Shown here piece by piece: positions 19,102 to 23,666 of a stretch of 64,000 bases of DNA. This DNA is from Pelomonas sp. Root1237. GTDB lineage: Bacteria; Pseudomonadota; Gammaproteobacteria; Burkholderiales; Burkholderiaceae_C. Each line of letters begins with the position of its first letter. Positions within the stretch are counted from its first letter, which is position 1. The position numbers and the translations under genes were made by a program. Location: contig NZ_LMDK01000016.1 of assembly GCF_001425055.1 (NCBI RefSeq), positions 62,001 to 126,000 on the forward strand, in the 5' to 3' direction. Below the pieces are notes generated by a model, which made no database searches, had not been told where the DNA came from, and saw nothing but the letters and a program-made list of their open reading frames with translations.

Positions 19102-20190
19102 ATGAGCTCGGGCACCCTGCAGGTCTTTGCCGGCCCGGCCGCGAAAGCGCAGCTGGCCGAGCGCGGCCTGCGCGCCGAGGACATTGGCTTGATTCCCGCT
19201 GCCGCCGGCGGTCCCAAGGGGCTGATCCTCAACGGGCTGGACCGTTTCGTCTTCGGTGAATGGCTGCCGCAAAGCCAGCATCCGGTGCATCTCGTCGGCG
19301 CCAGCATCGGTGCCTGGCGCATGGCCACGGCTGCGCTGGCGCACCGCGACGTGCCGGATGCGTTCAACACCATGGCCGAGGCCTATGTGACACAGGAGTA
19401 CGACGTGTTGCCCGGCGAGAAGCGCCCGCGGCCCGAGGGTGTCAGCAAGCGCTTCGGCGAGATCCTGGGCGATATCTTCGAGGGCCGCGAGGCCGAAGTG
19501 CTGGCCCACCCGCGGCTGCGCCTGCACGTGGTCACGTCGCGAGGCCGCGCTGGCTTGCTGGCGCGAGAAGGCAAGCTGCGCACGCCTCTGGGCTACCTCG
19601 GCGCGTTCGCGGCGAACGCCATGTCACGCCCGCTGCTGGGCCGCTTCCTGGAGCGCGTCGTCTTCTCCGACCCGCGCGACCGCCTGCCGCTGAAGCTCAA
19701 CGACTTCACGAGCCGCGAGGTGCATCTGTCGCGCGCCAACCTGCGCGGCGCGCTGCTGGCAAGCTGCTCCATCCCCTTCTGGCTGCAGGCCCAGCACGAC
19801 CTGCCCGGCGCGCCGCGCGGCGCCTACTGGGACGGGGGCATCACCGACTACCACCTGCACCTGGACTACCGCGCACTGCAGTCGTCCACCGCGCCGCTGG
19901 TGCTTTACCCGCATTTCCAGCGCCAGGTGGTGCCCGGCTGGCTGGACAAGGCGTTGAAACACCGCCACCGCTCGACGGACTTCCTCGACAACGTCGTGCT
20001 GCTGTGCCCGTCGCCCGATTTCATCGCCAGGCTGCCCGGCGCCAAGCTGCCCGACCGCAATGACTTCATGGCGCTGGACGCCGCCGAGCGCCGCCGCCGC
20101 TGGCGCGTCGCCGTGACGGAAAGCCAGCGCCTGGCCGATGAATTCGCTGCGTTGGCCCAGCGCGACTCCATTTCCGCCCTGCCGCTTTAG
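19102..20190 (+). CDS. Patatin-like phospholipase family protein
   Basis: 362-residue protein with the patatin catalytic dyad: oxyanion loop GGPKG (36-40), nucleophile elbow GASIG (66-70, Ser68) and DGG (244-246, Asp244). Patatin-type enzymes hydrolyse acyl esters of lipids. The rest is divergent from canonical patatins and has no signal peptide or membrane segment, suggesting a cytoplasmic or peripheral protein. It is only 19 bases downstream of the TonB receptor, so the two may be co-transcribed. The lipid substrate is unknown. The thrS promoter seems to begin within its last codons. Confidence 0.8.
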   Translation: MSSGTLQVFAGPAAKAQLAERGLRAEDIGLIPAAAGGPKGLILNGLDRFVFGEWLPQSQHPVHLVGASIGAWRMATAALAHRDVPDAFNTMAEAYVTQEYDVLPGEKRPRPEGVSKRFGEILGDIFEGREAEVLAHPRLRLHVVTSRGRAGLLAREGKLRTPLGYLGAFAANAMSRPLLGRFLERVVFSDPRDRLPLKLNDFTSREVHLSRANLRGALLASCSIPFWLQAQHDLPGAPRGAYWDGGITDYHLHLDYRALQSSTAPLVLYPHFQRQVVPGWLDKALKHRHRSTDFLDNVVLLCPSPDFIARLPGAKLPDRNDFMALDAAERRRRWRVAVTESQRLADEFAALAQRDSISALPL

Positions 20191-20193
20191 AAT
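20188..20193 (+). promoter_or_regulatory. Probable -10 element of the thrS operon
   Basis: TAGAAT overlaps the last codon and stop of the patatin-like gene, about 44 bases before the leader-peptide ATG. It matches five of six bases of the sigma-70 -10 consensus. No convincing -35 hexamer was found at the proper distance, so the assignment is tentative. Confidence 0.4.
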
Positions 20194-20236
20194 CTCGCCT
20201 TCCTCCCCTCACAAGAGCGAGAAAGGCACCCTGGTT

Positions 20237-20275
20237 ATGACACCGCGAACTACGTTCCCGTTTACCGGTAGTTAG
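20237..20275 (+). CDS. thrS leader peptide, Thr/Phe-rich (12 residues)
   Basis: A short frame upstream of thrS encodes [12 protein letters not shown], then TAG. Four of 12 codons are Thr, each a different codon (ACA, ACT, ACG, ACC), and two are Phe (TTC, TTT). An AAAGG ribosome-site-like stretch lies about ten bases upstream. A strong hairpin with a T run (20318-20346) follows and ends 24 bases before thrS. Thr and Phe are exactly the amino acids charged by the synthetases of the downstream operon (ThrS, PheST), so this is a likely attenuation leader peptide sensing both charged tRNAs. E. coli pheM is a precedent for Phe attenuation; the double-specificity form is inferred here. Confidence 0.75.
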
Positions 20276-20346
20276 TCGGCCGCGGCTCGTCACGTCTTCT
20301 CGCCTTCGGGCACAAACAAAGCGCGGCAAGTGGCCGCGCTTTTTTG
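20276..20346 (+). terminator. Attenuator: anti-terminator arm and rho-independent terminator
   Basis: The terminator stem is AGCGCGGC (20320-20327) with GCCGCGCT (20333-20340), loop AAGTG, then a T run to 20345. The arms extend into AAACAAA/TTTGTTTG. Just after the leader-peptide stop, GCCGCG (20279-20284) can pair instead with CGCGGC of the terminator's left arm, which would prevent the terminator. A stalled ribosome in the leader peptide could therefore switch the fold. The alternative pairing is read by eye and no energies were computed. Confidence 0.7.
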
Positions 20347-20369: not shown

Positions 20370-22277
20370 ATGATTTCGATTCAACTCCCCGACGGCTCGC
20401 GCCGTGAATACCCCGCCGCGCTGTCGGTCGGCGACGTCGCCGCCAGCATCGGTGCCGGCCTGGCCAAGGCCGCCCTCGGCGGCAAGGTCGACGGCAAGGT
20501 CGTCGACCTCAGCCACGTCATCGACCACGACGTGCAGCTCGCCATCGTCACCGAGAAGGACGCCGACGGCCTGGAGCTGATCCGCCACTCGACGGCCCAC
20601 CTGCTGGCCTACGCGGTCAAGTCGCTCTACCCCGACGCCCAGGTCACCATCGGCCCGGTCATCGAGAACGGCTTCTATTACGACTTTGCCTACAAGCGCC
20701 CGTTCACGCCCGACGATCTGGCCGCCATCGAGGCCAAGATGACCGAGCTGGCCAGGAAGGACGAGAAGGTCTCGCGCCGCGTGCTGCCGCGCGACGAGGC
20801 GGTGGCGCACTTCAAGGCCATGGGCGAGGCCTACAAGGCTGAGATCATCGAAAGCATCCCGGCCGACCAGGATGTGTCGCTGTATGCCGAAGGTGCCTTC
20901 GAAGACCTGTGCCGCGGCCCCCACGTGCCCAGCACGGGCAAGCTCAAGCACTTCAAGCTGATGAAGGTGGCCGGCGCCTACTGGCGTGGCGATCATCGCA
21001 ACGAGATGCTGCAACGCATCTACGGCACGGCCTGGGCGACCAAGGACGACCTCCAGAAGTACCTGGTGATGCTGGAGGAAGCCGAGAAGCGCGACCACCG
21101 CCGCCTCGGCAGGGAGCTGGACCTCTTCCACATCGACGAGCACGCCCCCGGCGTCGTCTTCTGGCATCCCAAGGGCTGGACGGTCTGGCAGGAGGTGGAG
21201 CAGTACATGCGCCGCGTCTACCGCGACAACGGCTACCAGGAGGTCAAGGGCCCGCAGCTGCTCGACAAGACGCTGTGGGAGGCCACGGGCCACTGGGACA
21301 AGTACCGCGACAACATGTTCACGACGGAGTCGGAGAAGCGCGATTACGCGCTCAAGCCGATGAACTGCCCGGGCCACATCCTGATCTTCAAGCACGGCGT
21401 CAAGAGCTACCGCGACCTGCCGCTGCGCTTCGGCGAGTTCGGCCAGTGCCATCGCAACGAGCCCACCGGCGGCCTGCACGGCATCATGCGCGTGCGCGGC
21501 TTCACGCAGGACGATGGCCACATCTTCTGCACGGAAGACCAGATCCTGGCCGAGTGCGTGGCCTACACGGCCCTGCTGCAGAAGGTCTACACGGACTTCG
21601 GCTTCACGGACATCATCTACAAAGTCGCGACGCGCCCTGACGCCCGCATCGGCTCCGACGAGGTCTGGGACAAGGCCGAGCACGCGCTGATGGAATCGCT
21701 GCGTGCCTCGGGCGTGGACTTCATCATCTCCCCCGGAGACGGCGCCTTCTACGGCCCCAAGATCGAGTACACGCTGAAGGACGCCCTCGGCCGCCAATGG
21801 CAGTGCGGCACGATGCAGGTCGATTTCTCGATGCCGGGGCGCCTGGGCGCCGAGTTCGTCGACGAGGACGGCCAGCACAAGACACCCGTCATGCTGCACC
21901 GCGCAATCGTCGGCAGCCTGGAGCGTTTCATCGGCATCTTGATCGAGCAGCATGCCGGCGCGCTGCCCGTCTGGCTGGCTCCGACGCAGGTGGTGGTGGC
22001 CAATATCACCGACGCGCAGGCCGATTACGTGTCTGAAATTGTGAAATCGCTGCAAAAACAAGGGCTTAGGGCCTCAGCAGATTTGCGCAACGAGAAGATC
22101 ACCTATAAAATCCGCCAGCATTCCATGCAAAAGCTGCCGTACATCCTCGTCGTAGGCGACAAGGAAAAGGCGAATGGCAGCGTTGCGGTACGCGCCCGTG
22201 GCAACCAGGACCTCGGCGTGATGCCCCTGCAGGACTTCCTCTCTCGGATCTCCGCAGACATCACCAACAAGGTCTGA
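20370..22277 (+). CDS. thrS: Threonyl-tRNA synthetase
   Basis: 635-residue class II aminoacyl-tRNA synthetase that charges tRNA-Thr. The protein has the usual TGS domain (residues 1-60, [16 protein letters not shown]), the editing domain with [12 protein letters not shown] (metal-binding His region), SAD domain, the catalytic core with motif 2 ([34 protein letters not shown]), motif 3 ([20 protein letters not shown]) and a C-terminal anticodon-binding domain. It is first gene of the thrS-infC-rpmI-rplT-pheS-pheT-ihfA operon. Its leader carries the Thr/Phe attenuator described separately. Confidence 0.98.
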
Positions 22278-23636: not shown

Positions 23637-23666
23637 AGGGCCGGCCCACCAGGGTCGGCCCTTTTT
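23637..23666 (+). terminator. Internal rho-independent terminator between rplT and pheS
   Basis: Stem AGGGCCG (23637-23643) with CGGCCCT (23656-23662) is followed by a run of T to 23666, 16 bases before the pheS ATG. Since pheS-pheT follow directly, it probably acts as a partial terminator or a second attenuation point that lowers pheST expression relative to ribosomal protein genes. No Phe-rich leader frame like pheM was found in the gap. Confidence 0.75.

Follow-up and report, generated by a model that had tools for sequence, protein, structure and literature searches.

The thrS leader locus

The DNA analysed here, termed the window, is a stretch of 64,000 nucleotides from Pelomonas sp. Root1237, in which a row of open reading frames was recognised by eye as what we take to be thrS-infC-rplT-pheS-pheT-ihfA; rpmI, being too short for the list of open reading frames, is assumed from the usual gene order to lie between infC and rplT. 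Directly before thrS, as a sequence-only reading of the locus had stated, lie a 12-codon frame with four different threonine codons and two phenylalanine codons, a terminator hairpin with its T run 24 bases before thrS (ATG at 20370), and a competing segment, GCCGCG (20279-20284), whose complement, CGCGGC, lies in the terminator's left arm at 20322-20327. The frame reads ATG (20237-20239) ACA CCG CGA ACT ACG TTC CCG TTT ACC GGT AGT TAG (20273-20275), and the terminator hairpin, AAAGCGCGGC-AAGTG-GCCGCGCTTT, occupies 20318-20342, with the T run extending to 20345. The combined pattern of frame and terminator arm has a single site in the organism's own genome. By thrS, its closest named relatives are records of Rubrivivax and Roseateles (87%), in a search that may omit very near records. 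The features of the locus are listed below.

20188..20193, + strand: TAGAAT, a -10-like box and probably the promoter of the thrS unit, with a start predicted near 20200
20219..20226, + strand: GAGAAAGG, seen in the window sequence and probably the leader peptide's ribosome-binding site
20237..20275, + strand: leader peptide of 12 codons and its stop codon, with a conserved MTPRT start and Thr codons enriched in this frame only
20243..20254, + strand: region 1, CCGCGAACTACG (codons 3-6), pairing with region 2 (from partner overlap with region 3 and the ribosome-free fold)
20278..20285, + strand: region 2, GGCCGCGG, directly 3' of the stop codon, pairing with region 1 or region 3 (from sequence, pairing statistics and covariation)
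20318..20327, + strand: region 3, left arm of the terminator (from sequence and hairpin scan)
20333..20345, + strand: region 4, formed by the right terminator arm and the T run (from sequence, hairpin scan and hairpin counts in the family)
20370..22277, + strand: thrS, threonyl-tRNA synthetase, the first regulated gene (an open reading frame, 113-204 bases 3' of the leader ATG in 67/67 family loci)

The start block together with the terminator-arm pattern was found in 234 of 399 family genomes, representing 100 of 141 genera, and the reversed pattern gave no matches. One locus per genus, taken among the pattern matches listed, makes up the set of 67 family loci, all of which have thrS downstream on the same strand; since codons 2 and 3 and most of codon 4 are set by the pattern, variation in this set is free from codon 5 only.

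A TANAAT hexamer lies 15-110 bases 5' of the leader ATG in 53/66 family loci against 2.2 expected from shuffles, at a median distance of 51 bases (49 in the window), and a two-hexamer sigma-70 scan of the window region returned no match. The sequence GAAAGG is present no more than 40 bases before the leader ATG in 65/67 family loci and the longer GAGAAAGGC in 57/67. Certain loci from other families (L185, L188, L209, L210, and L214) lack the ribosome-binding stretch or have it in altered form. In seven other-family loci (L032, L039, L040, L050, L061, L103, and L108), one or more tRNA-Val(GAC) genes lie upstream on the same strand, so the leader there may be read from the tRNA promoter. In the predicted fold of the window, GCGAGAA (20217-20223) in the ribosome-binding region can also pair with TTCTCGC (20294-20303) after region 2.

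Distribution of the leader and its threonine codons

The block GGTTATGACACCGCGAAC was located upstream of thrS with at most four mismatches in 57 of 110 thrS loci, the remaining 53 having at least six, and it was exact in 31 of the 40 block-bearing loci outside the genus. A search of 300 genomes of the order met the block with no more than one mismatch in seven other families; at up to two mismatches, 72/300 genomes matched, and as the reversed control also matches at this threshold, trust at the order level is limited to 0-1 mismatch. Among 30 loci from other families of the order, thrS is downstream on the same strand in 27, including all 23 with the exact block, and each of the three without a downstream thrS carries two block mismatches.

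The block is absent in nine near relatives with thrS identities of 78-81% (L005, for which just 240 bases of upstream sequence were at hand, L006, L011, L013, L015, L021, L024, L051, and L076). By reading, seven of these (L005, L006, L013, L015, L024, L051, and L076) have a G+C-rich hairpin with a T-rich tail near thrS without the leader block, as if, judging from these sequences, the frame had been lost first. L008 keeps the block with its terminator nearly gone (-3.6 kcal/mol). In L016, a Polaromonas metagenome-assembled genome, ATA replaces the leader start codon and Thr 5 is lost (ITPRIGLALF), the terminator hairpin still being there.

At the class level, 60 thrS upstream regions from other families, mostly the best-scoring of 93 matching genomes (the 93 including the own genome and one of its family), held a short frame with at least three Thr codons in 6 cases against 3.8 expected, and likewise 6 against 3.8 for Phe; the Thr frame is thus no general feature of the class. 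Among the 53 thrS loci without the block, such a Thr frame was present in 16 against 2.6 expected, with other residues raised too (Phe 10 vs 4.3, Ser 20 vs 11.1, Arg 21 vs 13.0, and Ala 14 vs 9.7), and at least four of the Thr-rich frames (L005, L013, L015, and L051) are, by reading, tails of upstream genes. Some other betaproteobacteria carry unlike short Thr frames (MFKRTTTTRISR, MQRTSTKTITYLG, and MTLRTCTKH). Threonine-coded control of thrS may therefore have been kept or regained with different peptides, a suggestion to be read with the frame count in block-less loci being raised for other residues as well. Xanthomonad-like thrS loci were also seen with different, very short frames: L065, L067, L071, L078, and L244 (MSTTSSQR, MSTTPI, MATTRFHC, MSTINV, and MSTTTAQR, respectively).

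From codon 6 to the stop codon, ACN codons make up 160/575 codons in frame against 26/1016 out of frame in the one-per-genus set (p = 9e-51), and the other fetched loci gave 61/278 against 19/484. Within the genus, the figures are 83/133 in frame and 0/232 out of frame, among sequences that are nearly alike. A composition shuffle of the 67 family loci yielded 39.5 Thr from codon 7 on, where 109 were observed. All four Thr codons (ACC, ACT, ACG, and ACA) are in use, and genus members differ from one another by whole Thr codons. From codon 5 on, at least two Thr are present in 65/67 leaders and at least three in 52/67; near-invariance is confined to Thr 2 and Thr 5, and the leaders of certain members (MTPRTSRQLFM and MTPRTKPPSVIG) contain few Thr besides these. 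By its frame-specific threonine enrichment, the element is a short frame with cognate codons upstream of the operon.

Competing pairings, the attenuation model, and its alternatives

An intrinsic terminator separates the frame from the first gene in the window and in the family, where TTTT is preceded by a hairpin at -10 kcal/mol or below in 66/67 loci against 6/201 shuffled sequences; a lenient rule placed a hairpin before a T run in 117 of the 118 distinct loci. In folding, the 170-nt leader surpasses its shuffles (z -2.72, with 3/200 shuffles as good). A simple terminator scan over the whole scanned region found 7 against 5.9 expected, which is not significant, and the case for the terminator consequently rests on conservation.

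Region 2 has two alternative potential partners, namely codons 3-4 of the frame and the terminator's left arm. The best partners of regions 1 and 3 overlap in 61/66 family loci against 35.5 expected from shuffles, and the summed pairing energy falls within the best 5% of a locus's own shuffles in 29/66 against 3.3 expected; the other fetched loci behaved similarly (overlap 29/35 vs 20.3 expected; energy 13/35 vs 1.75 expected). In same-genus loci, the overlap was 16/16 against 9.3 expected, with no excess in energy (1/16 vs 0.8 expected). Covariation was assessed in 82 of 104 loci, 22 having been dropped for want of a terminator or the core motif: the base adjoining the core 2:3 pairing is paired in 55/82 loci, where 5000 shuffles gave a mean of 35.0 and a maximum of 50, in statistics that ignore relatedness. 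The same covarying base pairs with region 4 in the terminator in 51/82 loci. Mutually exclusive 1:2, 2:3, and 3:4 pairings are hence indicated by the shared region 2 and the 2:3 covariation, the genus showing no energy excess.

Taken together, the sequence and comparative data establish the frame, its frame-specific Thr enrichment, the terminator, the promoter-like box at a fixed distance, and the shared partner segment. The element is probably, at a probability of roughly 0.8, a classical ribosome-mediated transcription attenuator of thrS that senses charged tRNA-Thr; translation of the frame, ribosome stalling, read-through, and the direction of the response are what we infer from its sequence. 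The order of events, taken by inference from the classical attenuation model, would be as follows. Transcription would start near 20200 and a ribosome would translate the 12-codon leader. With charged tRNA-Thr in good supply, this ribosome would proceed to the stop codon, where its footprint would reach region 2 (20278-20285), leaving regions 3 and 4 to terminate transcription before thrS. Under a shortage of charged tRNA-Thr, the ribosome would wait on one of the Thr codons 2, 5, 6, and 10 and cover region 1 (20243-20254); region 2 would then pair with region 3 (20322-20327), the terminator would fail, and thrS would be transcribed.

In the ribosome-free fold, the 1:2 pairing forms. Other folding results weigh against this sequence of events. 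Masking of the ribosome footprint did not set the stalled state apart from the stop state: a stalled ribosome was better than one at the stop codon by at least two pairs in 16/66 loci and worse by at least two in 2, the rest lying within two; the values for the window itself were 5.6 (stall) and 6.6 (stop). With the RNA upstream of a stalled ribosome free to pair, the window leader is expected to form, of its 6 antiterminator pairs, just 1.7 for a stall at codon 5 and 0.8 for one at codon 6. All three folded states favour the terminator as soon as region 4 is present, and the attenuator model accordingly needs timing. In Comamonas-type leaders, region 2 begins ~11-14 bases after the stop codon, at the edge of the footprint.

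A further point against a plain attenuator is that the start block is conserved at synonymous positions beyond what Thr sensing needs. Outside the genus, codon 2 is ACA in 37/40 loci, codon 3 CCG in 39/40, and codon 4 CGA in 37/40, while the tail diverges, and GGTT precedes the ATG in 35/40. One reading, to our minds unlikely, is that the block GGTTATGACACCGCGAACT, being kept at synonymous positions and 5' of the ATG as the peptide drifts, might serve as a second sensor (for example, a binding site for threonyl-tRNA synthetase or an arrest sequence) beside codon sensing, with a Phe input in the genus as a further layer.

The sequence-only reading had proposed a dual Thr/Phe attenuator: the operon holds the genes of both synthetases, and the leader would for this reason sense both amino acids. 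Of that proposal, the Thr leader, terminator, and competing segment before thrS are supported, and Phe sensing is not. The proposal drew on the two Phe codons in the window and on pheST downstream of thrS. At least one Phe codon is present in all 17 genus members, where Phe is frame-specific (18/133 in frame vs 0/232 out of frame), although these members, the own sequence included, are close kin and not independent. From codon 7, Phe occurs 29 times against 10.7 in the composition shuffle, with a cluster at codon 10 in 17/67 family loci. Footprint arithmetic also places a ribosome on either Phe codon clear of region 2; as waiting on any of codons 2-10 would free region 2, a shortage of Phe could act weakly, like any shortage for the peptide.

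Several observations weigh against Phe as a second sensed amino acid. The Thr frame is conserved across the family and beyond, whereas any Phe at all is found in just 15/40 non-genus loci and 29/67 one-per-genus loci. From codon 6, Phe codons outside the genus are not clearly frame-specific, either in the one-per-genus set (30/575 in frame vs 34/1016 out of frame, p = 0.08) or in the other fetched loci (18/278 vs 17/484, p = 0.07), so that conserved, frame-specific Phe beside Thr was encountered only among the close kin of the genus. Among the 17 members, the second Phe codon is private to this species; Thr is scarcest in the window and one other member (4 vs 7 or 8). Glu shows the same excess as Phe (34 vs 10.9), yet no Glu synthetase was recognised among the downstream genes. 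Nor does Phe track pheS linkage: pheS follows directly after rplT in 32 leader loci, of which 14 have Phe. Dual sensing is rejected as the main reading on the strength of the frame-specificity results, the patchy occurrence of Phe, and the missing link to pheS; a second Phe input is not needed to explain the data, and we regard the dual attenuator as rather improbable. The idea that the Phe codons have a structural cause, with TTC forming part of a local hairpin, found no support either, 9/30 Phe codons lying in stems against 115/575 of all codons (p = 0.16 for Phe vs the rest).

The arrangement between rplT and pheS also speaks against dual sensing, since this spacer has a terminator-like hairpin of its own (window 23637-23662; with its T run, 23637-23666), and hairpins with T-rich tails were seen by reading in many of the rplT-pheS spacers of 66 relatives. 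This hairpin may insulate pheST from thrS control, and whatever control the thrS leader has over pheST may be partial; going by gene order, a reach of the attenuator into infC, rpmI, rplT, and pheST is possible. No pheM-type leader (a frame of 6-35 residues with at least two Phe) was found in the window's rplT-pheS spacer, and the 66 spacers hold scattered Phe frames, mutually unlike by reading, with no conserved Phe frame among them.

Highly doubtful, in our estimation, is a more radical view of the near-invariant start block, namely direct recognition of GGTTATGACACCGCGAACT, whether by threonyl-tRNA synthetase, as an arrest sequence, or in some other way, with codon-by-codon Thr sensing being secondary. 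The codon and GGTT conservation described above favours it, as does the autoregulation of E. coli thrS by its own product, which is mentioned in the part of PMC2965389 covered here. Set against it, the Thr enrichment goes on past the block, and in frame only, and betaproteobacterial frames with at least three Thr occur without the block (L041, L054, L057, L058, L059, L108, and L110). An origin of the hairpin as the mere terminus of the patatin-like gene upstream, with the short frame arising by chance, is scarcely credible: the patatin-like open reading frame does end at 20190, 128 bases before the hairpin, but a -10-like box sits at its end, and the conservation of frame and block across genera makes such an origin very unlikely.

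Comparison with known systems

The leader-peptide attenuators of the E. coli trp, his, and thr operons share with the Burkholderiales leader a short frame rich in cognate codons, a terminator before the first gene, and an alternative pairing segment past the stop codon; the Burkholderiales leader differs from them in having a tRNA synthetase gene as its target, an almost invariant start block, and, in many members, few cognate codons. The near-invariance of the block raises the question of what is kept besides the Thr codons. E. coli pheM, a Phe-coded leader just before pheST, is likewise a case in which a leader peptide attenuates a tRNA synthetase of this gene neighbourhood, whereas the present leader precedes thrS, is Thr-coded, and has no pheM-like frame between rplT and pheS in the window. 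In the textbook cases, thrS is controlled in E. coli by the synthetase itself, through a translational operator, and in Firmicutes by a T-box; feedback control of thrS is common to both and, as proposed, to the element described here, which differs from them by its short frame and terminator.

A T-box was rejected on the grounds that its covariance model matched neither in the window at gathering score nor around the leader at E up to 10. The threonine operon leader of Rfam (Thr_leader, RF00506), which has Thr-coded peptide attenuation in common with the present element, gave no covariance model match in the window at gathering score and none at E up to 10 around the leader; under these same two settings, no Rfam family matched the leader.

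No description of a Thr leader before thrS in Burkholderiales was found in the open-access literature searched, and by term search thrS is absent from the main text of PMC2864571, PMC6429828, and PMC4833913. The portion of PMC3766115 covered names His, Leu, Thr, and Trp as the attenuators in Rfam at that time, and that of PMC2965389 reports hisS leader peptides alongside its mention of threonyl-tRNA synthetase autoregulation in E. coli.

A short Thr-containing leader peptide upstream of thrS, termed thrL, has been reported from RNA-seq in Streptomyces lividans TK24, with attenuation proposed (PMC8079986). In the sections of that paper covered, thrL is an actinobacterial peptide of 18 residues with two Thr (MKRVRPFLETTPGFVPAR), a leaderless start, and no clear terminator; the Burkholderiales leader, in contrast, encodes an unlike peptide behind a ribosome-binding-site-like stretch and includes a strong terminator followed by a T run. 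On the evidence of these sections of PMC8079986, this kind of control is already known at thrS; an attenuator at thrS in 100 of the 141 sampled genera of one Burkholderiales family, without an Rfam family of its own, would show the solution to be widespread.
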